From Sphagnum magellanicum (taxonomy: Eukaryota > Streptophyta > Sphagnopsida > Sphagnales > Sphagnaceae), in NCBI GenBank assembly GCA_021904315.1, contig CM038917.1, positions 19,970,272 through 20,034,271 of the forward strand: 64,000 bases of DNA, written 5' to 3'. This document shows, in pieces, positions 12,295-64,000 of the stretch. The translations under genes were made by a program, and so were the position numbers. How positions within the stretch are numbered: the first letter of the stretch is position 1; every line of letters begins with the position of its first letter. The notes beneath the pieces were generated by a model. The model saw only the letters and a list, made by a program, of their open reading frames with translations. It was not told the origin of the DNA and did not search any database.

Positions 12295-15061
12295 ATGTCT
12301 TCTTCATCCTCACTGCAGCAATTCCAATCGCTATGTGCAAGATCTAGGCCTTTTCTAGATCACAAAGGCAGCATCAGCTCCACCAGCACATGGAGAAGAG
12401 GGAGCTCGACCAGGAGGAGCTTGCTGCTACGTGTCTGTGTGCACCTGCAATTCCACTGTACCCATCAACAACTTTTGCAGCATGCTGCACTTCTTCCCAG
12501 AGCCCACCGGATACAAACAGAGACGGCATTCAGAGATCACGGCAAATGTAAGCTTTCTTGTCTTGTTCCTCTCTGTCCACTGCCTTCCTCTCACAGTGTG
12601 TGTGTTTTGTTTCCCAAAAAATCTTCAACTTGATTATAGTCATATTTCCCCAGTCAAATCAAAAGATTGGACACAATCTATGCAAGATGCAATACCTCAT
12701 TGTTGCTTCTATGTGATCAAAGTACATGATTTGAAAGCAAGTTTTCCTGCAGTCCCTGGAGGTCAGAAAGAGAAATTGTGGCGGGAGTTCTTCATGGACC
12801 CTTCACAATGGTGGGATCACAGATCAGAGAAGGTACCTGAACATCAATCCTCTCAGAGTTCAGATGTCAATGGAACTATAGCTCTTGTTGGTGTGAATCT
12901 TGTTCCTCTCTCTTGGTTGCTATTTTCCACTGGTCTAAACTTGACAGAAATTCTTTCTGTTCCTTTACACTGGTGGGATAATAGTAGTAGTCTGGAGTAG
13001 GTAAGTACAATATGCTGATAGAGAAGGTCAGTGTGGCTCTCTGTCCTGGGATATGGAGAATACTTGGCTGATCATCTTGATATGGATTTCTGGTTGTCTA
13101 GGCAAATGAAAGGTATCCAGATTTCAAACACAAGAAGACAGGGGAAGCACTATGGCTTGAGGACAGACAAAACCTGCCATGGGTTGCAGCAGAGATAGCT
13201 GCAATGGCACCAGACACAGTGCAATTGAACATTTTTGCATGGAACCAGAAGTTTTCAAAATATGTGAAGGATGGGAAACCAGAGAAGGTGATTCAGTTTT
13301 TCTGACAAATGCAACTAGAAGGAATAGGTCCTGACAAATTCACTTTTGTTCCAGTGATTAAGGCATGTACTGGTTTAGGAGTGCTTGAAGATGGCAGGCT
13401 TGTTCATAAGCAGCTCATTCAAAGTGGTTTTGAGTCTGATGTCTTTGTTGGGAGTAGCTTGGTTGACATGTATGCAAAATGTGGGAGCATTAAGGATGCT
13501 TGGAGAGTGTTCAACAAGATGTCATCTTGAAATGTGGTCACTTGGACCACCATGATGTTGGGTCATGTAAAATGTGGCCAAGGGCAGAAGGCACTAGAAC
13601 TATATCAACAAATGCAGCAGGAGGGTGTGCAACCAGACTCTGCTACTTTTGTGGCAGCGCTGAATGCGTGTGCCAGTGTGGCTGCGCTCGAAGAGGGCAG
13701 GTGTGTTCATCACCAGATCATTCAAAGTTGTTTGGAGTTGGATGTCTTTGTGGGTAGTAGCTTGGTTGACATGTATGCAAAGTGTGGGAACATTGAGGAT
13801 GCTTGGAGAGTGTTCAACAAGATGCCATCACGAAATGTGGTCACTTGGAACGCCATGGTATTGGGACATGTGAAATGTGGCCAAGGGCAGAAGGCACTGG
13901 AACTATTTCAACAAATGCAACAGGAGGGTGTGCAACCAAACTCTGTTACGTTTGTGGGGGTACTGAATGCATGTGCCAGCATGATTGCCCGTGAAGAGGG
14001 CAGGTGTGTTCATCAACACATCATTCAATGTGGATGGGATTCAGATGTGTATGTGGGGAGTAGCTTGGTGGACATGTATGCTAAGTGTGGGAGCATGGAG
14101 GATGCTTGGAGTGTGTTCAACAAGATGCCATCTTGAGATGTGGTAACTTGGACCACCATACTTGGAGGATGTGCGATGCATGGGCATGGTAATGAAGCTC
14201 TTAAACATTTTGAATGGATGTGTGAAGAAGATGTACAGCCAGATGATGTAACTTTTATTTGTCTTCTGTCAGCTTGTAGCCATGCAGGTTTGGTGGGTGA
14301 AGGTATGCACTGTTATGCTTCAATGGTGAAAGACTATATGATTTCTGCAAAATTGGAACATTACACCTGCATGGTTGACCTTCTTGGCCGTGCTGGCCAT
14401 CTACAGGAGGCAGAGAATATGGTAATGGCAATGCCCTGTAAACCACATGTGGCTGTATGGATGGCTTTACTCAGTGCTTGCAGAATTCATGGTCATGTGG
14501 AGATGGCAGAACGCATTGCCAAACGAATTCTTGAAATGGAGCCTGATAATACTGCTGTTTATGTGCTGCTGTCAGACATCTATGCTCCTGGTGGCAACAA
14601 GCATCTCTGTCAGACTATTGAACAGCAGAGAAAGGAAAAAGGTGTAAACAAACAGCCAGGTCATACCTGGATTGAAGTTAATAATGAGGTGCATACATTT
14701 GTAGTAGATGATCTAGACCACCCCCAGATGCCTGAAATTCATGCAGAACTGCAGAGATTGTCAGGGCATATGCATGATGCAGGGTACAGGCCTTGTAAGA
14801 AATTGATTATGCATGATGTGGATGAAGAAGAAAAGGTGTTTCATTTGTCACCATAGCAAGAAACTGGCTATTGCATTCAGGCTCATCAACTCAGCTCCAG
14901 GTACTCCTCTCCGGATAAGAAAAAATCTGCAGGTTTGTGAAGATTGTCACACTTCCACAAAGTTCATCTCAAAAATAGCTGGGAGAACAATCATGGTGAG
15001 GGACGCCAATCGCTTTCATCACTTTGAAGATGGTGTGTGTTCTTGCAGGGACTACTGGTGA
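12295..15061 (+). pseudogene. PPR-E-DYW pseudogene with OSB-type PDF motif at its N-terminus
   Basis: The start is taken as the ATG at 12295, opening a Ser-rich, Arg-rich leader like an organelle transit peptide. An exon at about 12654-12832 carries FYVIKVHDLK and LWREFFMDPSQWWDHRSEK. It joins in phase to an exon starting at 13102 with YPDFKHKKTGEALWL and PWV. That layout matches the PDF motif of plant OSB organellar single-stranded DNA-binding proteins. PPR repeats follow (WNAMVLGHVKCGQGQKAL, SSLVDMYAKCGS), then E/E+ repeats and a DYW domain ending CSCRDYW. Intact relatives edit C to U in organelle RNA. This copy is dead: in-frame TGA stops occur at 13303, 13528 and 14134, each where relatives or its own sister repeats have CGA. 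A frameshift lies near 14845. The DYW catalytic HSE motif reads HSK. The first exon junction (near 12546) could not be fixed. Confidence 0.9.
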
Positions 15062-25625: not shown

Positions 25626-26409
25626 TGAAAAGGCTACTAAATTTGGCACCTGAAATCAAGATGTCCCTTTTGTAGCACATAGCTGGCTTCAATTTTGCCC
25701 TTCTTAGACAGAGAGGCATCTAGAAATGGGTCACAAAGCTTCAACATGACTGCACTCAGACTCACAAACATCCCATTGCTGGCAATAGTGAAGGGGTTTG
25801 CCTGCATCACCCACCAGACTTGACCATGTTAGCAGTTTCCTCTTTCATCCAAGAAAGGAAAACAAAGGAGTTCACACCTGACAGAAGTCAGAATAAGGGA
25901 AGACCTGTATCTGCACCTGATTGGCATTCTTTTGGATCACATCTGCTAAGCACTGTAGAACTTGTTCTCAAGCCTCAGCCATCTTCAACAGCTCCAGAAT
26001 GACATCATGTAAACCATCATATAACTGGTGCATTACTGTCCTTATTAGGGCATAAGATGATGTCAGGTCTGATGGTCGGCATTGAGGCTTCTGAAATACA
26101 CTGTTGTTGGATTGACCCAAGATACAACGGAATTAGGATCACAACCACGTTTATACATCAAACATGAATCAAAACCTCAAAATCTCTATAGCTTTCTCAT
26201 ACTAACAATAAAATGTACACAAAAATGTGCTCTCTGAAAAAATTCAAGGGCAACTTAATGATTATAATGTGCGAAATGTGGATACACATACCCTTACAAA
26301 CACAACATGCAACCAGTACAAAGGCAAGAACACTCATAATCCTCGACCACAAAGGAAGATGGTGCATCCTGTACCATGACAACTACAACAGGCAAAGTTC
26401 CTGCCAGGT
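25626..26409. other. DNA between the two halves of the broken E4 gene
   Basis: No recognisable coding sequence lies between the U-box remnant on the plus strand and the inverted E4 N-terminal piece. An inversion breakpoint must lie here or within the neighbouring introns. No repeat that would explain the inversion was identified. Confidence 0.45.
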
Positions 26410-27140
26410 TTAGGGCATCACCCCACCTTGGGTTCTCCGTTGCCAACAACAGAATGATCAGGAATAATGCTGATGTGGAAAAGCGAGCCAAAGATACTGC
26501 TCACTTCCAGAACTCGCCCATTTACGTGATTTCCCCTGGAATTCCATTGGGTGAAGGACAAGTACTAGGGCCAAGCTAGAGTGGGATACCAGCATCCCTA
26601 GAGCCCTCAAGTATCCCTAGAATGGTCCTAATGGAGAAATCTTCATCACACTTCCCTGCAGATCTTTGAATAGCTGCTCAAACAAGTCCTTCAATCCTTC
26701 CGGTTCATTCTCAAATCGGTTGATGAGATTACCGAGGAAACCAGATGGCAATGTAGAGCCACTTGAAGCGATGGTGTCGTATCCCATGTTAGGAGACAGG
26801 TCGCCCAAAATTAGGGTTAGAAATTGCATGTTAGGGGCTAGCGATGGCTCAGGTGGTTGTGGAAAAATTATGTCATTGGCATGCGCAAGCATAAGTACAG
26901 CAAAGGAAACAGCTAACTCCTTCACCTGCTGCAAAGCATCCAGAATTTCTGCCAAAATGATTATATCTTTCATAATCTGCGCTTTCCGAACCTCCTCGAG
27001 TGCTCGTCGATAGCAACCTACAAGATAAGAGAACCTACGGTTATAACCGGCATAAAATGTGCTTAGTCTTTCCATGAATACTCTATCACACGTCGCAGTA
27101 CCTTATCTTCTATATCAACCTTGCTTCTAGTTGCCTTAAA
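26410..27140 (-). pseudogene. N-terminal/core portion of the same E4 ubiquitin ligase, inverted
   Basis: Read leftwards, this piece gives DKVLRRVI near 27105, then from the ATG at 27075 MERLS, YLVGCYRRALEEVRKAQ, QVKELAVSFAVLMLA, SGFLGNLINRFENEPEGL, LFEQLFKDLQGSVMKISPLG. After shifts it continues with GRVLEVSSIFGSLFHIS and IPDHSVVGN at about 26430-26490. This is the order in UFD2-type E4 proteins (YL..CYRRA block, EL.G.V.K.S.LG block, GR.iE..S..GpfFh.S block). All of these normally precede the blocks found at 21.7-25.6 kb. The piece is therefore the missing upstream part, placed downstream in opposite orientation. Frameshifts after the SPLGPF stretch show that it is not functional. Confidence 0.8.
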
Positions 27141-27244
27141 TTGAGGCATAACTCAAGCAGAATCCACCTGGTGTTCCATAACCTAAACTCCCGTCAGATT
27201 TTTCCCTGTGAATAGTTTCGGTCCCCTTACCCAGCAGAACTTCC

Positions 27245-27352
27245 TGCTTCTAAAGTTACTGGAACCTTACATTTTTTACTGGCACCTTACGCCATTTACT
27301 GGTACCTCAAGCCCTTTTACTGGCACCTTACGCCCTTTTACTGGCATTTTAC
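27245..27352. repeat. Short tandem repeat, ~20-27 bp unit, about five copies
   Basis: The phrase TTTTACTGGCACCTTACGCC and variants (ACTGGAACCTTACATT, ACTGGTACCTCAAGCC) recur about five times head to tail, with spacing of roughly 20-27 bases. It lies between the E4 fragment and the promoter side of the MetE-like gene. Confidence 0.8.
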
Positions 27353-27689
27353 CAAAAAGCTAAAAGAAATGAGTGTAAAAATCTGATGTGACTTTACGTT
27401 GGGGAAGGTCTTGTCCGGAATTTGGGACCTAAAATCCGAAAGGTCCTCATTACAGGACCTTCCCCTGTACCTAATGAATAGGTCCTCAAGCAACCACAAA
27501 CCCTTTCTTTGCACCAAGAATTTGTGTAATCTCCGGAATACAAATATTGTGAGGCTTGGAGAGGGAGAAGGTCGGCAGTTCGCAACGCTGTAAGCAAAAG
27601 TTGTCAAGGGAAGGGAAGCTGCCGAGGTTTAAGTCAGCGGCCCGAAACTCGTTTCCCGTCGACAACAAATTTTTTTATTGTCGGGCAGT

Positions 27690-48700: not shown

Positions 48701-49530
48701 GCCATTCACCTAGTAATAGAAACAAAATAAAATCATATAAAAAAATTTTAAAAATGAAAAGGAAAAATAAACTAAAAAATGAAACAAACATAAACCAAAA
48801 AAAGTAAAAGTTGTAAGAAAAGAATGAAAACAAATGAAACAAACAAAGGGAAATACACCAAAAACACAATTAAAAAAAACACAATATAAAAAAAAGAAAC
48901 AAAATAGGAAGCAAACAAAAAAAAAAAAAAAAAAACTTACAATAATGAAAAAAAACATACCTAAAGAAAAATCTGGGTTGTCTTCTTTCTTCAAACTTTA
49001 AACCCACATCCAAACAAACAAAAATACAAAAATAAATAAAGAGACACTTTACTTCAAAAAAATAGGAAAAAAAAATGACTTACTTCAAATGCTATAACAA
49101 CTTGCAAGAGGGCAAAGAAAGGGTGAGTACAGTATGAGAGTAGAGCAAGGAAAAGGGATAGAAAGAAGAAGGAAGGAAAAAAAAAAAGAGAAAGACAAAA
49201 AAATAAAAATTAGAGTGAAAGAGGATTAAAAAGGCCAATTGTGGCCTTTTTATCCTCTCCCAACAAAGGTGTTAGGTTGTGGCAGCCACAATTTGCAACT
49301 TTTCCTCACCTAATCACTTACTAACGTAACAACCTAACTTAATTGTTAACCTAATTTAGTTACTAACTTGATATCCTAATCCAGGGTTAGAACTTAATAT
49401 TCAGCCTAGATATCAACCTAAATATCAAGATCCTTATATTTAGCATAGTCCTCAGATATATAAAAGTAGGCTATCACATAAGTGATATCTAGGGCAGATA
49501 TCCGAATATTCCAGATATCCGCCCAACACT
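45800..49530. mobile_element. Possible 3.7-kb inverted-repeat-bounded element
   Basis: GTGTTGGGCAAATATC begins at 45800, and its inverted relative GATATCCGCCCAACAC ends at 49529 (14 of 16 positions pair). Inside each end lie further related words on opposite strands (GATATTTAG, TTTAGGTT-GAT). Termini resembling CAGTGTTGGGC are known in hAT elements. No target-site duplication is visible and no transposase is recognisable inside, so this is a hypothesis. Confidence 0.35.
47890..49230. other. A-rich low-complexity region
   Basis: The plus strand is dominated by A-runs (AAAAATAAAATAAA, a 20-A run near 48918, AAAGAAAC words), mainly at 47900-48080 and 48700-49210. Lys/Asn-rich and Phe-rich open frames here are compositional artefacts. 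Confidence 0.7.
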
Positions 49531-51038
49531 GGTCTACAGTCTACCACTACATGCCTACACATATGAATTCCTTTTCCCCATTGTTAGGCAGCTGAAGGCT
49601 TACCTGGGTTTTTTTTTAAAAATTCGTCATATGCATTATGTGAAGGCTTACAATTTACACCCTAATGATAGTATTATAACCTACAATGTAACATGGTGGA
49701 GTGGTGTTGTGTGAAGTTGGGGATTTGGTTTTTGAAGTGTATGGTACAAGCATCTAGGTTGGAATACGAACGTAAATTTTTGCTTCTAGATTAATACACC
49801 TTCATTTCCTACAACACAATTGTGCTATTGTGCCTTCTACTTAGATTGATATGGCATTTGTGATTCATTGAGGATCCTATTGTCTTTAGAATATTATGGG
49901 GTAGATGCACTCTTTAATGGCTCATTATGTGACAAATAAAAACATCACCCAAAGTCCATTTCATTTGTATTTTTTTTGAGCTTTGAAATGACCAAATAGT
50001 TAAACAACATTAATCCATTTGATACAAATAATTATTTTGTTTATTTCTTGGGCCGAAGTAGAGAAACTTGTTTTATACATGTATGAAAAAACACCCAACA
50101 TTAAATGAATGATTTTTATAGTGATATGAACTTATGCACTAACAAATTTTTTTAACACTGATAAAAAATAAATAAAATCCATTAAGAATAACCTTCAACT
50201 GAGATGTTAGAAATTCCTTAAAACTTAATTTTATTGATATATTTGCCATTTAAATTGGGGTCTCTAACAATCGTAATATCAATTTGTTGGATCATTTTGA
50301 AGTTCATAGAAAAAACCTATTGTTAAGGGGCACAATCTATTCAATTCACTTTATAAATTCATAGATCTCTTAATTTTACAAGTAGTGGATAATAAATACA
50401 TACATCATTATGCACATTCAAGTTAGTAATCTCAAAATAAGTCTATTGAAATTTCTTAGAATTTGAAATACAAATCGACCCTTGAATTCACACTTATATC
50501 ACAGAAATTGATACTTTGGTTCAAAAAGTGAATCACTATATCTTGCATTGAACCTATGACATAACCTACTCTATGACATGAAAAAAAACATGGCATGCAG
50601 GGGGCATAACTTTATCCAAATATTTGGACAACATTGATTTTTCAAGCAAGTATCTTGCATATGTTATAAAGTCCTTCATCTTTAAGCAATAGTGTGTGCA
50701 AATCATTCATTCTAATATAATTAATTAATAGCTGGTGCTTGATATTGAATTAATGGGAAGTATTTGGGAATTATTTTTATCCATGAACACATATGGTTAT
50801 CCATTGCTAACATATGTTCATTCCAAAATGAATATATTCATCCACAGCAACTAATGAATTTCATCTACTCATTGCTCATCGAAAAGAGCTTTTTCATGAG
50901 TGCCAAGGGCCCATGGCTCAAGGGTCACAGCTCATGTAATAGACTTTCCCCACAAAATGTCCATTATGACCGAATTTTTTCCATTCTCACTAGTCACAAA
51001 AGACCGTATTTTTAGTAGTGAATGTTGCTTCAGTGCTC
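49531..51038. other. Intergenic DNA 3' of the TPR-CHAT gene
   Basis: AT-rich DNA without a recognised gene. Its right end would hold the 3' UTR and polyadenylation site of the minus-strand TPR-CHAT gene, but no unambiguous signal was picked out. Confidence 0.5.
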
Positions 51039-53529
51039 TCAATCATCAACATTCAAAATCCACTCGTGGTGTTCATCAGGGTATTTAAAGCCCAAACAGA
51101 AAGGACGATGGCTAGGGCTGTGCAACTGCTCCTCACCCTGAAGTACTTTCCGGGCACGGCGAGCATAATCCAATGCTCCACTTTCATCCTGCATCAGACG
51201 CTTGAGATAACTGACTTGGATCAGACAGTCGTAATCCTCTTGAACATCCAATAAGCGTCCAAATTCTTCCAAAGCTTCTTTCCACTTGCCCATGAGTCTG
51301 AAAATCACCGCTTTCTCTTGCCTAAGGTAAAGGTCAATCAATTCCCTGGAAGCTTGCATGAGTGGTTTGAATGCATTTTGATTGACTTCAATCATTTTGT
51401 TAGCATAGTCCAAAGCAACTGGATGACAACCTTCCATTGCTTGTGTGTACATAACATGCCTCCTTCAAACAAACAACCACCAACCAACTAAATTAATAGA
51501 CTCATTCATTGTATGGCATACAAAACATGTAATAGCACTGTGATATTGTTGTGTGCACAAAATATATTTATGCCACTTTCAACTTTAATGTGACTAGTTA
51601 GAAAGGAACATGAATAAAGAAGAGGGGAAGTCATTAGTTTCATACCGGAATTCAAACATGAAATTTTCGAAATCAACAACCCCCCTGTGAATAAAGTCTG
51701 TGTCCTGGCGCTTCTCCAACTCAAGCTCAACCATGTTTAATTGCTCAATGGACAATACTTTGTAAAACTCTTCAATCAATGCAGTGACCTCCTTGGAGAC
51801 AAGAGGATGATTAGTGAGTGTGGGCAATTCTTCAATAGCGAAGATGGCCTTAATAACAACTTCCTCTTCAACCGCAAATGCATTGCAAAATGCTAATTCT
51901 AAAAAAGTGTTGATGGACTTGAACAAAAGATCTACTGTCATGTTTTTCCCTGCCATACGATTGAATATCCTCTTCAATGACTCAGATTGCTGTTTTGCAT
52001 CAAGAGACTTTCTCGCATTCTCTGTCCAAAGCTCTCTGTGTGGCCCCCAATCAAAGGATGATAGTTCTGGCCACGCACTCTCATCAACAATCAAAAGCCT
52101 CTGACGGAACTCATCAGGCAATGCTTGGATGCCCAAACAAAATGCCCCATAGCCAGGCTTATCTAACTCACCCTCAAGCCTTTTGGCTCGTAGAGCGTAT
52201 TGAAATGCTCCCCTTTTATCATTCATTAAATACTTGAGATAACAAACCTGGATCAAATCCCCATATCTAGGCTTGAACATTTCCAAGTAACCATCAAATT
52301 CCTGCAAAGCTTCTTCATACTTGCCCATAAGTCTCAAAATTATCGCTATCTCTGCTGAGCATGAAGACATATATTCACTATTTGCAGACATGGCTTTCAG
52401 TATCTTATTGGCATAGTCCAAAGCCATTTGATGATTGCCCTTCATGGCTTGCATGTGCATTATATGTCTCCTTCATCCAAGAACCACCAAACAAAATATT
52501 AGACTAGAGAATTATCATTAAAGTACAATAACTTTCAATGATTAAATTCTACATAACTTCCTACAAATTAGCCCTTTTAGCTTTGTTAAATATTCTTACA
52601 CTAAAGTACTTCATAACCTTAAACCAACATCACTTAGGAAAGCTTCCACTTTCAGGACCTTTGTTAAACTTACTTTTACACCAAAGTACTCATAATCCTA
52701 AATCAATCTTAAATCTCAAATATTCATTTCAAGTATGTCAAGGTGTGTATATATCTGCACATAATGACTCCCACATTTATCTATTAGTTTGAATGCAAGT
52801 ACCTTCCTTGCTTTCAACTAACAAGTAACTAGGGATTGAGAAAAAGATAAAGAAATAAGACAATAGGAAGATGTTACACTCATACCAGATTAAAATTTTC
52901 CTGGAGGATGATCCACAACCACTGTAACGATTCTCTAATGCAACTTCAATCCTTCTGAATTGTTCAAAGGGCAATAACACATAAAACTCTTCAGCTAAAG
53001 CAATGATATCTTTCGATACTTGAAGACGACATGCAGTTTCAAGCAGATTTTCTGTGGCGACAATGGCGTCGATGATAACATTGTCATCCAGCATACATGA
53101 TGCCTTCGACACTGCTCCCAAGAAAGTGTTCACTGCCTTCAACTCCTTTAAGAGCCAAATCCTCATATCGTTGGATATAATATACTTGAATGCACCTCTC
53201 AATGATTCAACTCGTTGTTTACAAGGAAGGGCCCTTCTTGCCATCTCTGTCAAGAGCTCTGTGCGCAGCTGAATTGTGGGCAAGCCCCACACTAGAAATG
53301 GACCCCATTCAAAAATGTTATTTGCATTCTCACATTTGGGATCAGAGAGATGTACCATTGCGGATTGAAGGGCCGTAGCCACATCCTCCCCATGTTGCAG
53401 ATTCTCATAGAATGCCTTCATCAATTTTGGAGATGCACTGTCTTTAACTTTCCATTGTGACACTACTGAGACTGGAACCCCTGCTATCATCAACGCACGG
53501 GGCAGGTTGACCTCACCATCATTATACCC
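51039..53529 (-). repeat. Duplicated C-terminal modules of the TPR-CHAT gene (exons 10-12)
   Basis: Exons 11 and 12 begin alike (RHIMHMQAMKGNHQMALDYA versus RHVMYTQAMEGCHPVALDYA) and continue alike (LRLMGKYEEALQEF versus FRLMGKWKEALEEF; LIQVCYLKYLMNDKRGAFQYA versus the exon-12 LIQVSYLKRLMQDESGALDYA). The second half of exon 11 repeats the second half of exon 10 (FKSINTFLELAF, VIKAIFAIEELP, VSKEVTALIEEFYKVL versus LKAVNTFLGAVS, IIDAIVATENLL, VSKDIIALAEEFYVLL). Exon 11 has introns in phase 2 at both ends, so it can be duplicated or skipped without breaking the frame. Confidence 0.85.
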
Positions 53530-56500
53530 CTACAAAAAAATGCAATGCTAATAGTTGTGAGATCATGGTAAAGCTTTCATCATCATGAATTATCAGTACT
53601 TTTTTTTTCAAAAAACACATATTATCATGGCTGGCTTCCCCCTACAGTTTGAAGGAGGTAGGTTGGCTACTAGACACCAACTAAATGTAGCTCAGAGCAT
53701 CAGATATCTGGAGATACCCTGTGATCAACCCTTGGGATACCACTGTGATACCTTGTATTACCATTGTGATACCTACATGGTATCTGCAGCCCTCACCATT
53801 CAATTGGTGGTGACATACTCCCAACATAAGAATTGATTTTCAGGCTTATGATATCAAATGAAAGTTTCTCCATTGATTTCCCTTTGTATGTGTAGCAGCC
53901 TCAATTTTTTTGGTAGAAATATTGTGAAATCATTAGCCAGAAATAAAATCACTGTGCATAATACTACAATATATTTGTACAACACCGCAAGCTACTCTAG
54001 ATCCAAATTCATTGGCACCACATGTTGTATCAAAATCAGGACTTTTCTAACAGCTGACAGAATTCACCTGGCCTCTTGATGTATTGCACGCACTGAGAAC
54101 CACAAGGGGTGTCCGCCATTGGAAGCCACCACTAACGATATCCTCTGAGGGAAGCATGTCATCCGCAGCACAGGAAATGTAATCCTTCGCCCTTGTAACG
54201 GCACCCACTTCACCAAACACACTAGTTCCATGTCCTGAACCTTTGCTAGAAGATTCTGCTTCAAAATTGAGTGCCTTCTCCGGCACTGAAATAGAAGATT
54301 GAACAGTTTCCGTCAGCTTGGTACTGCTGCTGATATCTGTAAACAAAAGAAGACTTGAAATAAACTCATATGCCAAAAACAATATTGCATAATTTGGCTA
54401 TGTATTTGAAGATGCAGGCCATGGAAGTCTACTCAAACCTCACCAGTGTTGGACCCATGCTGCTGAGGCTTGGCAAATTGCAGGGAGCCAGTCTTATATT
54501 GACTTTCAATTTCTTCATCACCATAAACGACCACTCCAGCTTTTTTTTCCCTCCAGTGACCATGCACTCCTAGATGTATGAATGCAAAGGTGTGGCACTC
54601 CTTAGACTGACAAGGCTCTTTCACCAGCTCCAAAAACTTGGCACGTGTGGCCTCATTTTGCTCCAGTGTCTTTACTCTGCCTAGGAAACACGACTGCAGA
54701 TGCTTCACTTCTTCCCCTGTCCCAGGAAGAGGATCCTCCTCGTAGGCAGGGTTACCCACTGCCAAGATGCACCCTTCTGGTTTCAATGGGCAATTCTCAA
54801 GGTCACTTAGCCGCTGTTTACAGTGTTGCAGAACTCGCAGTGAGGGAGCAACTGTGGTTGGATGCAGTTGGAATAGATATTTCTGAGTCTCTTTATCTCG
54901 GAGTAGAGAAAATGGCACCCTGTATAGCATCTGCAAGCATATCATAACCAGTATTTAGTGCAGCCTCCCCTTGCAATGCATCATTTTGACTTGATTCAAA
55001 CATTTTGAGGTTTGGTCGCACTGATATAAGGAGGAACCAGAACGGAGCCAGTTCCAAAGCAATGGCACCAACCTCAAGACAATATAGTTTTGGAAACATT
55101 ACAAATCCAAGTGGTATTCCAACTACAATCAGTCTCAGGAGCAAGCCCAAAATCTGCATGACAGACAGGGATGCACAAGATAGTGGTGCAAGTGAAGAGG
55201 GTTTCATTGCCAAAGAGGATGAATAATGGCTTTTTTATTTATGAAATTCTCTTGCATGGATGAAATTGTGACACTTAAGGGTGACACAGATGAATTCATG
55301 ACAACATTCAATTGATGGAATAGATGTGAAAACTACTAACATGATGAGTATTCATTGCCTTATTGAAGTAAGATGAAAGGAACATTACTATTACCAACCT
55401 TGTCAGGTACAAAGACGATGGTGGCTTTGGGGTTGAGATGCTTGTCCCAGAAGGGTTTGATGAGTAAGTCATACAACCTCTCAAGAATACTATGCAGCTT
55501 CAACACAACACCTGTAACATCATTGCATTGCAGAGGAACTGTAGTGTAAAAGTCATCCACCAGCTTCTCCACTTCATCAGGATTGCAATTAAAAAAACAA
55601 CTCCGAACATCATGTGTCCCGTTTGCTGATTCCTAACAAACCCAACCAATTCCCCTTAAGTTCAATCCAATTAGCATGTGAAATCTGTCCTGAGCCAATA
55701 CATTAGTTTCAAAAAATGTTGCTAACCTCTACATGAGGGATAGTGTCTTACATGTAACACAAACACCATTCCATTGAGGTCATGAACAAGCTCTGGTTTA
55801 GTATGGATCACGTATTCAACTAAGATGTGGTCCCCTTTGCAAGCATTTCGGCTTGATGTGATAGAGTTCCACGCTATCTTGTACATGAAGAAAAAAAAGT
55901 AGACACATCGATATATATGTCATAGTATTAGATTACACACAAAGTTGCAGATCCACAAGATTAAAATGCTGCGACTGCTTAGTTTGCCTTGTAGGCCATG
56001 AATAAATATCCTAAGCTGCAATAGATATTACAAAAATATATAAAACATACTATTAGAAAATCAACAACCAATGCAGATGTTCCAATTCATTGTCTTCTTC
56101 TAAATCCATGTATGGTGCATGGCTATATATTATAACAAGAGTGATATACATACCTGCTGATTGTTGTTGAATTCTAGTAGCTCCTTTTTCAAGGAAACTG
56201 GATTCAAACCATCCTCCTGTTGCATGTTATACCAAGGTCCAAGTTGGCTCATAAGCGTTTGTGCACGGCCTCTTTCTGCCCACACTAGCGCACTCTCAAA
56301 GAGGTCATGAAAGGCATGCTCAAGAACAAGAATTGAGTACTTGCTACTTTGTGTGTGGATGAGATCCTTCCAATCAAGATCCTTTGGATGCACTGGTAGA
56401 TCTTGTGGATGAATCTTTGACATCACAGATGGATCATCGCTTTCCCGTATTCTTTTCTGCCATAAAATTAAAAGCCTTTGATGGACAGTCAACATCAACT

Positions 56501-59500
56501 CATGAACACCCTTATGCGTCTCCAAGAGCTTCAGCCATCCATCCTCATTTGAAGTCCAGTTATGAAACAAGTCGGAGTAGATATCGATGGAATGCTTAAT
56601 GAGGCGAAATGCCTTTAATGTGTCCGGGAGGTCATCACGTCTGTGTTCACCTGATGTGCAAGGATTGCTGAGACATGCAACCAAACAATTTGTCTCGGGC
56701 GGACGTATGTGTACGATAGTACATTCTCCAGGGCTATGCACACACTCTGGCACCGACAAGGCACATTGCAGGTTGAATTCTGGATGTTACATACATCAAA
56801 TCCATTCAAAATTAGACAAGGACCACACACAAATAACCCTAAACACTAAATTCTAAATCCTAAACCCAAACCCTAAACTATGAACCCTAAACCAAAAATT
56901 CTAATTCTGTAGATGCTATTAATTAAATCAATTTGGGGTTCGATGGCAAGCATGTAAGAAATTTAGAGCTCTTTGGTTTTCTAATCTTCATATAATGCAT
57001 GTGAGGTACGATGATCAGCTCTTGTGTGACAAGTGAGCATCTCTTGACCTTTTTCAAGCTGGATTTTCAATGTAGGAGCATCTGGACTGTTTGCCAACAT
57101 GTTGTAAGAATGGTCAGCCATCATCGATCCACAAAGCTGCAAAACTTTGGCAGTTACTCGACGATCACCCAAGGCTTCACAGAGGTCAAGGAAAAAGTTC
57201 TGCTTCTCACGAATAGACTCCCATGGTAAGAGCGAGTGGTGACAGGAACGAGATATGATATCCCACCCAGAGCAGGAATAACATATGTCTGGTGCATTCA
57301 GACCATGGGTGAGGAAAAAGCGTAAGTGCCAATTTAACACCTCTTCTTTCAAATCAAGCTGTTCAAACATCTCTTTAGTTTCACTCAACCTGCACAATAA
57401 TCATGACTTGAGTTAAATTACAATGAAACTTTGTCTAATACCCAAACATTGAACAATTTGTCCTAAATGCAAAAGAAAAGTTGCCATTAGGGTAGGGGAA
57501 AATTACCGCTCAATGTGCTCTAATTTAGTTATGATGGAGGATACACAAACAGTGTCAGAAGGGTCTAAGTTTCCTGGCATAGAACCCTGTCCCCATGGAA
57601 AATCCAGAGTGAATTCGTCTCGTAATTGTTGCAGACTGATGTACATGTACTTGTCAGCATTGATTAAAAGCTTCTGCACCTCTTTCTTCATTTGAAATAA
57701 CTTGTGACCATCTACTTCATGGTATTCAATATGTTTGCCGGATATGTCTGCAACCATTAAGTCGTCTGGAATTTCATCAAGCATCTTATCCATCTTCTGA
57801 AGCAACTGTGTGGTTCGCTTCTCATGTCCCAATCGACGGTGGAGAAGTGCTGTCCTGCGATACACCATATAAAATGAAACATCGAACAGAAACTCAGTAT
57901 CACCAGAAGCATTGAACAACGTCCTGTACTCTTCAAGGAAATCACAGAGCTCGTCACCCCACTTGCTCAGACGAGTATCCTCTGCATGCTCATCATTTGC
58001 ACCAAGCATCTCAGCTCTGACCCTGGCAAGAACCTGTATTACAGGTACCAAAGTCCATTGAAACATCAATTTCATCGCCTTGTCCTTCTCTGAATCCGCA
58101 TTACCAATATATTCAATCCACTGGTTAAACATTGCACGACAATAATCTCCACCACACTTCCACTTGTCAGATAATCTAGAGACCTCATCTTTGAGGTCGG
58201 AGCATGTAGAGATGACTGACTTCGGGTCCTTGTTCTGTAAGTCAATGCTCAGCCACAGAAGTAAACTATTGAGGCAAATAATGCAGGCAATGTGAGCACA
58301 ATGGACTAGTGTTTCAGAGCTTAAGTCGCAGAATGATCCATCCTTGTGTGTACACGTTAGGCTTTCCAAGGGTATAACAAAGTGCCCATGTGTTTTAGGC
58401 TTTGTGTCCTCACATGTCTGATCAAGTGCCTTCAACTTTGCACTCCACCACTTCACCCAATCTTCACACTCTAGGTGACACTTCTCATCTAGAGAGGTGA
58501 AGATAGTCCCCCATAAAAATGGCCCTCGAACCAACTGCCGTACATTCATAGTGTTTGGAACCAACTGCCCTGCATTCACAGCGTTTGGCAAATTGCAAGC
58601 CTCAAGTACTGCAGTCACAGTCCTGCGGAGACCTTCTGGCCAATAGTGGGGCTCCAGTGGTGGCATGCCATCAAACTCAAGATCTTCTGGAGGCAACATC
58701 AGATTGAAAGCCTGTGTACATAACATCCACAATACATACATTTTTTAAAAACAACTAGTCACTAGTTGGTGGGAGGAGGCAGCTTCTCAGGATTTGACAT
58801 AGTTACATGACAACAAAATAGTTAGACCTCAACAAAAGGTTTACTTTTAGGACAACTAAATTCTTTAACTTAGTTCTAGCTCAAAGTTCTTTTCTATAAA
58901 ACAAAGCAAAAAAGAATGGGTGGGGAATGATGTAAGGAATGGGTTGGGAATGGGTGATGTGGCAGCCTCACAGGGATGGAAATAGGATTTCAAAGGCAAA
59001 AGTACCATAATCAAAATGACTTATCAAAGGAATAAAATAGATGAAGTAAACCACAAAGGACATGAAATTAAAAGGAAAGAACTAACCTTGCTAGTGGGGT
59101 CAAACATATTCTTGGGCAGTAAATCTTCACTTGTATCAACTGAAGGAGCTTTATGGGGAACCATGAAGGCAGGAACTTCCAATTTAGAACTGGTTGCAGT
59201 TTCTCCAACCAGTAGAAACTTGGGCATAAACAAAGGCACCTTCACTAAAGGAGTAACAGCAGGCTCAAGGACAGCTGGTGATGTAGGTGTTGGTGCTGGG
59301 GCTGCAAGTGAAGGATCAACAGCGGCATTGCTGACGTGCACAAAAAGTCCACATTCATGTGTATGAATTTCAATAAGAGTACCAAAAACCAGCAACTATT
59401 TCAAGAAAGAACTATATTGATTAGAAGGGCAATTGATATCATGTTTTTTATAAGGGAGTGCCATGTGCATATATGCTCTCTGTAGTGAATGTAAGCTTTT

Positions 59501-59662
59501 TAAATACTTTCCTTTTCAATTGTCAAAAAGGATGAGCTCTCACAAGTACTGCTATAGAATGTTACATGAATGGATGCATAAGAATATATACCTTGTTCTT
59601 CTGTCATCATCAAGCTCCCCAGGATGCAAGCCCATGTCTTCCATGCCAATTTGGTCAGACAT
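51039..59662 (-). CDS. Large TPR-rich protein with CHAT (caspase-like) protease domain, 12 exons
   Basis: Twelve exons join at GT-AG introns with matching phases: 59662-59592, 59330-59087, 58711-57507, 57389-57010, 56779-56154, 55877-55752, 55632-55399, 54930-54444, 54336-54068, 53529-52886, 52470-51646 and 51462-51039. They total 5,535 bases, or 1,844 residues plus TGA. After a Pro/Ala-rich leader (about residues 25-105), residues 106-880 are mostly helical and TPR-like (ALVWAERGRAQTLMSQLG near the end). The CHAT domain runs from about 880 to 1290: VFVPDK-MLYRVPFSLLRD, LAVGNPAY, LPGTGEEVKHL, IHLGVHGHW with catalytic His about 1085, VVLSACNTSRGQ with Cys about 1208, then GEVNLPRALMIAGVPVSVVS and FLVWGLP. 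CHAT proteases are Cys-His peptidases related to caspases and separase; the partner and substrate here are unknown. The C-terminus carries repeated TPR-like modules (ALDYANK). Exon 2's acceptor and exon 4's donor are the least certain. I see no inactivating change before the last exon. Confidence 0.85.
56836..56905. repeat. Degenerate interstitial telomere-type repeat in an intron
   Basis: CCCTAAA-like units (AACCCTAAACAC, TCCTAAACCCAAACCCTAAAC, GAACCCTAAACC) lie in the intron between exons 4 and 5 of the TPR-CHAT gene. On the plus strand they are in CCCTAAA orientation, opposite to the terminal array. Confidence 0.85.
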
Positions 59663-60705
59663 TGCAAGACAAGTACCTGGAAGGGGAAGAACAAAAAAAT
59701 AAAATAAAAATTAGCAACTTGAGCAACATGGTAATTGAACATCAGGCAACAATGTCTCCTGACCTGTCTATTTGTGAAACACAAAGAAAATAATATCAAA
59801 GTCAAAGAGTTGAATCCAGTAAGTAGATCAAACCTTAATTGGACTTCCTGCAATCTCTATCCCATGTAGAGTACTCTATTGCAATGCACAAGCTTCTTCC
59901 AGTCCATCATGGTGCAATAAGTCCCAAGAAGTGTATACTTAGTGGTATGAATTATTTAACTGCAAGTTGATAACCTACACCAAAAAGAGTGTTTGTTCTC
60001 AATATCCACTCAAAATGAAAAGCTCATGTGGGTCAACTTATGACGTTGCACAAAAACAATCACCAAATCCTGCAAACACATGAGCTCTGAAATACAAGAG
60101 AGCGGCCTCCAAGATAACTCACATACAAGTCTTGACAAAGAATTAATGCACGGATAAGAGCAGCCACTAAAACTTAGTACTTCCGCATTGACATTGTGTC
60201 CTCGTGACGGTTGTGGAGGCACCACTGCCGTCGGTCTTCGACTTCGCTGTTGGATGGCGAGGTGTGAGGTTCAGGGTGAGGACGGGGTAGGACTTCAGTG
60301 TGACAGTGGAGAAGCATGCTTTGCACCAAATGAAAGTGCACGAAAATCAAATCTCCCTCTCCAAGCATAACATGTCTTTGGAATGTGAAAGAAAATCCGA
60401 CTTGAACCTCACCTGACCTTCAGATGATACGCCCTCTTAAAATCCGCAGCCGTAGCATCTGGCCGCACCTCATAACACTCCGTATCCTTCACCATCTTCA
60501 CCGAACCAATCCGCTCCCACCCTCAACCATCTCGCCCCTCCACAACTCACCTCCCAAACCCCCACCTCCAAAAGCACTGAACGAAACCACAATTGTTCTG
60601 GCAACAAAAATGATATAAAAATAAAATAAAATTAGTAAAATATAAAGAAATAAGAAATGTAAAACTAGGAAATATAATAAAGAATAAAATAAAAAACATT
60701 GAGTA
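59663..60705 (-). promoter_or_regulatory. Upstream region of the TPR-CHAT gene
   Basis: This is the only DNA between the predicted start codon and the subtelomeric repeats, so promoter and 5' UTR must lie here if the gene is expressed. A patch at about 60180-60560 is clearly GC-richer, with CpG-containing words, and then gives way to AT-rich DNA and repeats. No individual promoter element could be assigned with confidence. Confidence 0.35.
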
Positions 60706-60714
60706 AGAAGAAGA

Positions 60715-61600
60715 GGGTTTAGGGTTTAGGGTTACATGGGTGTTCCCACCAAAATTGGGTTTTTTTTTTGGGGTTTTGAAGTGACCTACCCCCCCATTTT
60801 CAAGGGTTGTGAATCCAATGGTGTAAAAATCCCACCATAACTGTTCACCATTTGGTTAAACCCTAAACCCAAAACCCTAAACCCACCAAATGGTGAACAA
60901 TAATGGTGGGATTTTTAGGGTTTAGGGTTTAGGGTTTAGGGTTAGGGTTTAGGGTTACATGGGTGTTCCCACCAAAATTGGGTTTTTTTTAGGGTTTAGG
61001 GTTTAGGGGTTTAGGGTTTAGGGTTACATGGGTGTTCCCACCAAAATTGGGTTTTTTTTTTTTGAGTTTTGAGGTGACCTACCCCCCCATTTTCAAGGGT
61101 TCTGAAGCCAATGGTGCAATAAAATTCGCTTAATCTATCACCATTTGGAAGATATGGGGGGTGTGAAATTTCAGGGGGGCCGGATAGATGAGGGCATAAA
61201 GAGTTAATTATGATACATGTTGAAAGTTTTGAAATGACCTACCCCCCCATTTTCAAGTGTTTTAAAGCTAGTGGTGGAGTTATTTTTGCTTAAAAGTGTC
61301 AAGTTTGCAAGATATAGGAGATTTGATGTTTTTGTGTTTGATGGGCATTTTGACCTAATTGCGGTTATTTTTTAGATATGTGGAGATGACCTACCCCCCC
61401 ATTTTCAAATGTTCTGAATCCAATGATGTAAAAAAATTTGCTTACACTATCACCATTTGGAAGATATGGGGGGGTTTGACTTTTTAGATTCTGGTTGACT
61501 TTCCCTGTGTTTCACAAAATTTGAAAGTTTGGATAATGCAATTCATTAAGTGCGTGGGGATACAAAAAACCCAAGAATATGTAGTTGGATCTAGTTTTGC
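60715..61600. repeat. Subtelomeric repeat: diverged copies of a TTTAGGG-linked unit
   Basis: Short TTTAGGG runs are each followed by ACATGGGTGTTCCCACC (starts at 60734, 60957 and 61026), a T-run, and GTGACCTACCCCCCCATTTT with a downstream segment containing CCAATGGTG and CACCATTTGGAAGATATGGG. The GACCTACCCCCCCATTTT word recurs alone near 61230 and 61390, so the unit itself is built of shorter ~150-bp subrepeats. Younger copies lie at 62081 and 62886. Confidence 0.85.
60825..60916. repeat. Perfectable 31-bp inverted repeat around inverted telomere units
   Basis: Positions 60825-60855 and 60886-60916 are inverted copies matching at about 29 of 31 bases (arm starts AAAAATCCCACCAT, ends CACCATTTGG). 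The 30-base centre is CCCTAAA-orientation telomere sequence, opposite to the flanking TTTAGGG. This looks like a local fold-back event. Confidence 0.85.
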
Positions 61601-62049
61601 CAAATTTATGTAAGTATGTGAAGTTTTGCCAAAAATATGGAATTATGTGAAGTTTTGCCGAAAATATGGAATTATGTGAAGTTTTGTCGAAAATATAGAA
61701 TTATATGAAGTTTTGCCAAAAATATGGAATTATATGAAGTTTTGCCAAAAATATAAAGTTCTGTGTTAGTTTTGCCAAAAATATGGAAATATGTGAAGTT
61801 TTGCCAAAAATATGGAATTATATGAGGTTTTGCCAAAAATATAAAGTTATGTGTTAGTTTTGCCAAATTTATGGAGTGTGCCAAGTTTTGCCATAAAAAT
61901 AAAGTTATGTGTTAGTTTTGCCAAATTTATGGAGTTACGCCAAGTTTTGCCAAAAATATGGAAATATGTGAGGTTTTGCCAAAAATATGAAATTATATGA
62001 AGTTTTGCCAAAAATATAAAGTTATGTGTTAGTTTTGCCAAAAATATGG
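61592..62049. repeat. Minisatellite, ~29-33 bp unit, about 14 copies
   Basis: The unit GTTTTGCCAAAAATATGGAA followed by TTATGTGAA recurs from about 61592 to 62049, with variants (CCAAATTTATGGAGT, AAAATATAAAGTTATGTGTTA). Single GTTTTGCCAAATTTATG units also occur near 62654 and 63460. The open minus-strand frames it produces are repeat artefacts. Confidence 0.9.
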
Positions 62050-62080
62050 GTTTAGGGTTTAGGGTTTAGGGTTTAGGGTT

Positions 62081-62699
62081 ACATGGGTGTTCCCACCAAA
62101 ATTGGGTTTTTTTTTTGAGGTTTTGAAGTGACCTACCCCCCCATTTTCAAGGGTTCTGAAGCCAATGGTGCAATAAAATTCTTCTAGAGCATCACCATTT
62201 GAAAGATATGGGGGGTGTGAAATTTCAGGGGGGCCGGATAGATGAGGGCATAAAGGGTTAATTATGATACATGTTGAAAGTTTTGAGGTGACCTACCCCC
62301 CCATTTTCTAGTGTTTTAAAGCTAGTGGTGGAGTTATTTTTGGTTAAAAGTGTCAGGTTTGCAAGATATAGGGGATTTGGGGTTTTTGTGTTTCATGGGC
62401 ATTTTGACCTGATTGCGATTTTTTTAATATATTTGGAGGTGACCTACCCCCCCCATTTTAAGTGTTCTAAATCCAATGATGTAAAAAAATTCCTCTACAC
62501 TATCACCATTTGGAAGATATGGGGGGGTTTGACTTTCCCAGTCCTTGGTTGACTTTTCTTGTCTGTCACAACATTTAAGGGTTTGGACAATGCAGTTTAT
62601 GTTGTTGCTTAAGGATTTCAAAACCTAAGAAAGTGCATAAGTAATTTTATCAAGGTTTTGCCAAATTTATGTAGTTATGTGAAGTTTTAAGGTTTAGGG
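62081..62699 (+). repeat. Subtelomeric unit, copy A of a recent 805-bp duplication
   Basis: This copy runs from ACATGGGTGTTCCC to GTGAAGTTTTAAGGTTT and matches 62886-63504 base for base apart from about one difference (ATTTTAT versus ATGTTAT near 62646/63451). A 75-codon open frame inside both copies has no known homologue to my eye and is probably not a gene. Confidence 0.92.
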
Positions 62700-62885
62700 T
62701 TTAGGGTTTAGGGTTTAGGGTTTAGGGTTTTAGGGTTTAGGGTTTAGGGTTTAGGGTTTAGGGTTTAGGGTTTAGGGTTTTAGGGTTTAGGGTTTAGGGT
62801 TTAGGGTTTAGGGTTAGGGTTTAGGGTTTAGGGTTTAGGGTTTAGGGTTTAGGGTTTTAGGGTTTAGGGTTTAGGGTTTAGGGTT
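62691..62885 (+). repeat. Interstitial telomere array (TTTAGGG)n
   Basis: About 195 bases of TTTAGGG in tandem, with occasional extra T (TTTTAGGG) or one-base-short units. It separates the two recent copies of the subtelomeric unit. The G-rich strand is the plus strand. Confidence 0.95.
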
Positions 62886-63504
62886 ACATGGGTGTTCCCA
62901 CCAAAATTGGGTTTTTTTTTTGAGGTTTTGAAGTGACCTACCCCCCCATTTTCAAGGGTTCTGAAGCCAATGGTGCAATAAAATTCTTCTAGAGCATCAC
63001 CATTTGAAAGATATGGGGGGTGTGAAATTTCAGGGGGGCCGGATAGATGAGGGCATAAAGGGTTAATTATGATACATGTTGAAAGTTTTGAGGTGACCTA
63101 CCCCCCCATTTTCTAGTGTTTTAAAGCTAGTGGTGGAGTTATTTTTGGTTAAAAGTGTCAGGTTTGCAAGATATAGGGGATTTGGGGTTTTTGTGTTTCA
63201 TGGGCATTTTGACCTGATTGCGATTTTTTTAATATATTTGGAGGTGACCTACCCCCCCCATTTTAAGTGTTCTAAATCCAATGATGTAAAAAAATTCCTC
63301 TACACTATCACCATTTGGAAGATATGGGGGGGTTTGACTTTCCCAGTCCTTGGTTGACTTTTCTTGTCTGTCACAACATTTAAGGGTTTGGACAATGCAG
63401 TTTATGTTGTTGCTTAAGGATTTCAAAACCTAAGAAAGTGCATAAGTAATGTTATCAAGGTTTTGCCAAATTTATGTAGTTATGTGAAGTTTTAAGGTTT
63501 AAGG
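62886..63504 (+). repeat. Subtelomeric unit, copy B of a recent 805-bp duplication
   Basis: Second copy of the unit at 62081-62699, displaced by exactly 805 bases and nearly identical. The near identity shows recent unequal exchange, replication slippage or gene conversion at the chromosome end. Assembly duplication is also possible. Confidence 0.92.
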
Positions 63505-63720
63505 TTGGGTTTATGGGTTTAGGGGTAGGGTTTCGGGTTAGGTTAGGGTTAAGGGTTATGGGTTCCGGGTTTAGGGTTTAGGGTTTAGGGTTAGGGTTTA
63601 GGGCTTTATGGTTAGGGTTAGGGTTAGGGTTTATGGTTTAGGGTTTAGGGTTTAGGGATTTGGGTTTAGGGTTTAGGGTTTAGGTTTAGGGTTAGGGTTT
63701 AGGGTTAGGGGTTCGGTTCG
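63490..63720 (+). repeat. Irregular telomere-type repeats
   Basis: Mixed TTTAGGG, TTAGGG, TTTATGG and AGGGGTAGGG units with many indels. Orientation is the same as the inner array, consistent with the start of the telomere. Confidence 0.85.
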
Positions 63721-64000
63721 GGGGTCGGTTAGGTTTCGGGTGTTCGGGTTCCGGGTTTCGGGTTAGGGTTTCGGGTTTCGGGTTTCGGTCGGGTTCGGGC
63801 TTCGGGTTGGTGTTTCGGTTTCGGGTTTCGGGTTTCGGTTTCGGGTTTCGGGTTTCGGGTTTCGGGTTTCCGGGGTTCGGGTTTCGGGTTTCGGGTTTCG
63901 GGTTCGGGTTTCGGGTTTCGGGTTCGGGTTTCTGGTTACGGGTTTCGGGTTTCGGTTTCGGTTTCGGGTTTGGTTTCGGTTAGGGTTTCGTTTCGGGTTT
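63700..64000 (+). repeat. Terminal TTTCGGG-variant telomere tract
   Basis: From about 63715 to the end of the window the unit becomes mainly TTTCGGG, with TTCGGG and occasional TTAGGG or TTACGGG. Orientation matches the telomere. It is either a real variant-repeat tract or a sequencing base-call artefact of the TTTAGGG array. Confidence 0.85.

Follow-up and report, generated by a model that had tools for sequence, protein, structure and literature searches.

Here we describe a gene at the end of contig C11 (GenBank CM038917.1, 20,034,271 bases) of the moss Sphagnum magellanicum, whose assembly (GCA_021904315.1) comprises 438,994,042 bases in 31 contigs. The window, that is the whole stretch of DNA analysed, consists of the final 64,000 bases of C11, its last base being the contig end, and positions below are those of the window unless a contig is named. 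On its minus strand, from 59662 to 51039, lies what is most likely a real and apparently intact nuclear gene of 12 exons, confirming an earlier observation made from the letters alone. Its product carries a CHAT domain with an intact His-Cys pair, preceded by a long N-terminal region and followed by a duplicated C-terminal arm, and most likely would be a competent, triggered cysteine protease, catalysis being predicted from sequence.

Independent reconstruction of the gene yielded 12 exons in matching phase, all introns being GT-AG, with the start ATG at 59662-59660 and the stop codon at 51041-51039. When the exon-4 donor at 57009 is used, the model proposed in the sequence-only reading (12 in-phase exons, 5,535 bases, about 1,844 residues) is reproduced exactly, giving 5,535 bases including the stop, 1,844 amino acids, and the active-site residues as His 1085 and Cys 1208. 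An alternative donor at 57048 keeps the phase and gives 5,496 bases and 1,831 amino acids, with the same residues as His1072 and Cys1195. In our own judgement, made by inspection and unscored, the 57048 donor (AAAAAG/gtcaag) is nearer the usual donor consensus than that at 57009 (CATC/gtacct), and residue numbers given here follow the 57048 model. On the coding strand the open frames are longer than expected by chance, the top five having 413, 292, 250, 218, and 173 codons against at most 158 in 200 mononucleotide shuffles, and guanine plus cytosine content is 0.526, 0.359, and 0.447 at the three codon positions and 0.346 in the introns.

Exon boundaries were taken from the rebuilt model and their contents from Pfam searches, alignment, and self-comparison. 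Exon 1 (59592..59662) holds the start codon and residues 1-24; exon 2 (59087..59330, residues 24-105) is Pro/Ala-rich, with no domain detected by Pfam; and exon 3 (57507..58711, residues 106-507) is a single open stretch of 401 codons with no Pfam domain above cut-off. These are followed by exon 4 (57049..57389, residues 507-621; running to 57010 in the sequence-only version), exon 5 (56154..56779, residues 621-829), and exon 6 (55752..55877, residues 830-871). The CHAT domain begins in exon 7 (55399..55632, residues 872-949), the catalytic-type His1072 lies in exon 8 (54444..54930, residues 950-1112), and the nucleophile-type Cys1195 in exon 9 (54068..54336, residues 1112-1201). Exon 10 (52886..53529, residues 1202-1416) contains both the end of CHAT and a helical block, H1, exon 11 (51646..52470, residues 1416-1691) a TPR-like block, T1, and a second helical block, H2, and exon 12 (51039..51462, residues 1691-1831 and the stop) a second TPR-like block, T2. 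Because no homologue backs the exon-1 ATG, the model is least secure at its N-terminus. Exon 10 holds both the CHAT end and the first block that follows it, which ties the beginning of the C-terminal arm securely to CHAT.

The CHAT domain spans residues 920-1283 (53284..55488, introns included) and scored 150.1 bits with the Pfam profile (PF12770; cut-off 24 bits), the expectation value (E) being 1.2e-43, which bears out the domain assignment of the sequence-only reading. Its claim of an intact His and Cys likewise held: the column of His1072 (codon 54562..54564) is His in 59 of 59 bacterial relatives and that of Cys1195 (codon 54086..54088; both codon positions derived from the exon table) is Cys in 58 of 59, and the two residues align with the catalytic H585 and C627 of the Craspase TPR-CHAT protein. 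The further likeness it had drawn, to type III-E TPR-CHAT proteins and the separase/caspase clan, is supported as well, the fold being reached through a relative: a caspase-like fold is seen in the predicted model of a cyanobacterial homologue rather than of the spliced window protein itself. A profile of bacterial CHAT regions matched CHAT chains in the PDB at 4e-8, a four-sequence profile of CHATs from this genome reached them at E 0.12 only, and single-sequence phmmer searches of the PDB with the CHAT region or the whole protein found no CHAT chain. No NB-ARC or NACHT Pfam match was present in the window protein at E up to 1.

Genome-wide, 21 CHAT segments above the Pfam cut-off fall into 16 loci. 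The active-site pair could be read in nine of these, and both residues are kept in seven, namely the window gene and loci L039, L038, L040, L005, L006, and L037; the Cys position is occupied by Tyr in L002 and, by eye, by Ser in L041. Four paralogues were fetched, L039 on C1, L038 on C7, L040 on C16, and L041 on C17; the first three share 38%, 37%, and 29% identity, respectively, with the window gene over the CHAT region. An intron before exon 8 is common in place and phase to the window gene and all four paralogues (all five examined), and a sixth locus, L002, continues through that site without an intron. The residues of the His-Cys pair are 123 apart in the window gene. The three paralogues measured (L038, L039, and L040) gave spacings of 97, 105, and 119, not listed here in locus order and dependent on hand-made exon joints, as against 41-85 across the 59 bacterial regions, 32 of which fall at 45-47. 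By eye, L002 and L005 also have long insertions while L037 and L006 appear short, so that not every CHAT locus of this genome has the insertion. L041 (C17:19,799,000-19,808,500) is broken, its CHAT pieces lying about 2.6 kb apart with other long open frames between them. A run of NB-ARC matches occurs at C17:19.45-19.71 Mb, about 100 kb from L041 (C17:19.803 Mb), near the contig end. The CHAT of L006 (C19:30,762) is highly divergent, and this locus also gives a weak Peptidase_C50 match (9.5e-4).

In a tree from which the short L031 and L032 were dropped and L036 was excluded as a repeat of L002, the window CHAT pairs with L022 on C5 (support 97) within a group of five loci of this genome (split support 100). 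Nine of the ten own-genome rows are split from the 59 bacterial rows with support 91, the tenth, L006, sitting on a very long branch among the bacteria. On this tree the family may or may not have a cyanobacterial origin, whether by transfer or via the plastid ancestor. The top prokaryotic relatives in a single scan were cyanobacterial TPR-CHAT proteins (Microcoleus, Oscillatoriaceae, Leptolyngbya, and Calothrix); the Microcoleus relative (L045) has, by eye, a long repeat array followed by a C-terminal CHAT, and in the eleven cyanobacterial rows heading the list the His-Cys spacing is 45-52, compared with 123 here.

The sequence-only reading had placed TPR-like regions on both sides of CHAT, and the two sides fared differently. 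On the N-terminal side no Pfam TPR match was obtained. Residues 682-857 are homologous to the pre-CHAT region of L038, L039, and L041 (53.4 bits with a three-paralogue profile; best of 200 shuffles, 2.0). Of the paralogues, L038 and L039 have no TPR above cut-off and L040 has one. Residues 1-680 found no homologue outside the locus in either the genome search or the paralogue-profile search. On the C-terminal side, TPR-like units are present, if weak. The approximately 550 residues past CHAT (51042..53283, minus strand, delimited by self-comparison) consist of two copies of a helix-plus-TPR-like unit arranged H1-T1-H2-T2, in which H1 and H2 are 40% identical (E 1.6e-19), T1 and T2 46% identical (E 3.6e-31), and exons 11 and 12 begin at corresponding unit positions in equal phase. 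A TPR_12 match here (3.9e-6) falls under the curated Pfam cut-off (27.4 against 30.1 bits), and T1 gives weak TPR signals. The predicted model of exon 11 is all helical with TPR proteins as top Foldseek matches (E 3e-3 or worse), but its predicted local distance difference test score of 60 marks a poor model, so TPR by fold is not claimable for this exon. We therefore describe the N-terminal region as of undefined kind, with a last part common to the paralogues, and the C-terminal arm, as judged from its sequence, as duplicated and TPR-like.

Paralogues L038, L039, L040, and L041 differ from the window gene in having no counterpart of this arm, which among the 26 of 34 candidates scored was found elsewhere in the genome only in a decayed copy of the gene. 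Synonymous divergence (dS) between the two unit copies is approximately 1.0-1.1, whereas between the window gene and its paralogues CHAT dS has reached saturation in three comparisons and stands at 2.3 in a fourth; the C-terminal duplication is therefore probably younger than the paralogue split.

Over the two halves of CHAT, the proportion of silent sites that differ between the window gene and L039 and L038 (pS, 0.71-0.81) exceeds that of amino-acid-changing sites (pN, 0.32-0.41), the mark of selection. A second comparison is offered by the decayed partial copy (L042; C11:19,868,000-19,875,000, about 19.872 Mb), which lies about 150 kb inward of the gene and is a patchwork, joining a copy of window positions 26347-27672 (95.6% identity) to pieces of 49101-53202 (91-95%), the latter inverted and carrying an internal deletion and a short duplication. 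Although all counts are small, exon 12 differs from this copy at 4/141 first, 6/139 second, and 7/142 third codon positions, and the exon-10 piece, in the same order, at 2/40, 0/40, and 4/39, compared with noncoding differences of 9/170 in intron 11 and 153/1,933 in the 3' flank. In the 114-base piece of exon 11 (0/38, 4/38, and 2/38) this pattern is not seen, more differences falling at second than at third positions.

Beyond the gene, inspection for repeats revealed, at 62686..64000, an array of TTTAGGG units together with a repeat block and, reaching the contig end, degenerate TTTAGGG/TTTCGGG repeats. Repeat blocks occupy 60700-63500; one is a tandem array of 29-base units (61593-62049), and another, longer block recurs between TTTAGGG tracts. 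Listed open frames from the gene start to 63000 encode at most 118 amino acids, and the CHAT gene appears to be the last gene of the chromosome arm. Of the 16 CHAT loci, six are no more than 150 kb from a contig end, compared with 4 of 61 P450 and 2 of 57 NB-ARC places on the same ten contigs (pooled 6/118; Fisher p 0.0007). With the window locus removed the CHAT count is 5/15 and p is 0.003. This cut-off was set post hoc with positions known, the loci are few, and two of them, on C19, are just 50 kb apart; at 50, 100, and 300 kb the counts are 3/16, 5/16, and 6/16. The P450 controls are 61 of 92 places, after removal of 25 same-gene N-terminal segments from 117 (92 of 733 candidates scored), and the NB-ARC controls 57 of 125 places (125 of 380 candidates scored).

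Several known systems invite comparison. The type III-E CRISPR TPR-CHAT protein (Csx29, Craspase) is bacterial, works in a CRISPR complex, and has a His-Cys spacing of 42, whereas the window protein has a spacing of 123, about 550 extra residues after CHAT, and no CRISPR partner. In Craspase, target binding closes the gap between His and Cys, about 7 angstrom at first, to about 3 angstrom, turning the protease on (PMC9729208). A fungal CHAT protease bearing TPRs activates a gasdermin (PMC12881547). CHAT proteases of certain bacteria and fungi, when triggered, carry out defence or cell death (PMC9729208, PMC12881547). The fungal enzymes are likewise eukaryotic CHAT proteases with repeats, and many adjoin gasdermin genes; they were compared by published description and not by sequence. 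Separase (Peptidase_C50) has a caspase-like fold in common with the model of the CHAT relative.

We propose, with a probability of roughly 0.55, that the gene encodes a large CHAT cysteine protease triggered by a ligand or partner bound to one of its arms. The CHAT core would be kept inactive between the long N-terminal region and the C-terminal arm; binding at either would rearrange the active site, as non-self RNA does in the Craspase TPR-CHAT protein, and the His-Cys dyad would then cleave a protein substrate. Autoinhibition, trigger, and substrate are all inferred here by analogy. Several observations weigh against this proposal. The adjacency of His1072 and Cys1195 is taken from homologues, because only the relative's model carries fold evidence; the 123-residue spacing could alter the active site; the Cys is lost in two of the nine readable loci of this genome; and no recognised feature of the window points to defence, nor did a partner gene emerge, in a scan of seven flanking open frames, two of which belong to a PPR protein and five of which have no Pfam match at 0.01 (59663-64000 lying outside the scan). 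A genome search for gasdermin (PF04598) came back empty, with all its controls silent too.

The same evidence bears on other explanations. A separase-type housekeeping or developmental protease, with one endogenous substrate and no recognition role, seems unlikely: the common caspase-like fold notwithstanding, the genome's Peptidase_C50 match lies elsewhere, at C11:18,600,847-18,602,406 (7.1e-69 and 1.6e-18 within one open frame of 2,530 codons), and, unlike a housekeeping gene, CHAT is represented in this genome by a family of several copies, some of which have decayed and which often sit near contig ends. Orthology of the window gene to separase was rejected, as the gene is absent from the four Peptidase_C50 matches of the genome search and the plant's separase match is a separate one. 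That the gene is instead a decaying or non-catalytic chromosome-end member, its frame intact but its function gone or reduced to a scaffold, would be suggested by the partial copy 150 kb off, the two paralogues without Cys, the nearness of the contig end, and the long His-Cys insertion; with 12 exons free of stops and frameshifts, pN far under pS, and exon 12 differing from the decayed copy at 10/280 sites (positions 1 and 2) and 7/142 (position 3) against 153/1,933 in the 3' flank, albeit on small numbers, we regard this as quite improbable. A far-fetched further candidate is a structural component of the flagellum of sperm, which in mosses swim; proteins of the flagellar central apparatus include some with CHAT-like folds.

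Compatible with a triggered protease, and a tentative possibility to be kept in mind, is an error at one end of the model, whereby one of the first two exons, or the whole N-terminal third, would belong to another transcript, or the other exon-4 donor would be used. The lack of a detectable homologue of residues 1-680 outside the locus and the two in-phase exon-4 donors speak for it; every junction closing in a single frame, the 401 open codons of exon 3 by itself, and the joining of the CHAT end to the first C-terminal block by exon 10 speak against it.

If the gene does encode a triggered CHAT protease, its most likely setting might be the sensing of a foreign or stress signal leading to regulated cell death or defence, a tentative extension in which any function in immunity or cell death is guesswork; the sequence-only reading had rightly offered that role as no more than inference. 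More speculative, and in our view unlikely as a whole, is a broader picture in which the plant lineage would have kept a family of triggered CHAT proteases that evolves by birth and death and lies in part at chromosome ends, its members acting as stand-alone sensor-executioners without a nucleotide-binding leucine-rich repeat (NLR) scaffold and as counterparts of the bacterial and fungal CHAT cell-death proteases, the trigger here being the lineage-specific His-Cys insertion together with the duplicated TPR-like arm.

Plants are usually said to be without caspases, relying on metacaspases and other proteases. An intact, multicopy plant CHAT family bearing a mark of selection in its CHAT domain would make a caspase-type switch in plant immunity or cell death directly testable. 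No title on a plant CHAT protease appeared among the matches listed from the open-licence PMC literature, a search whose scope did not extend to protein databases, so that novelty in print is not established.

Two minor observations concern other genes. At 13531-14856 the window encodes a protein of PPR repeats, in which an E motif and, more weakly, an E+ motif are recognised. At C19:17,348,716-17,376,047, near the contig end, two P450 genes of opposite orientation have identical scores and perhaps represent a recent inverted duplication.
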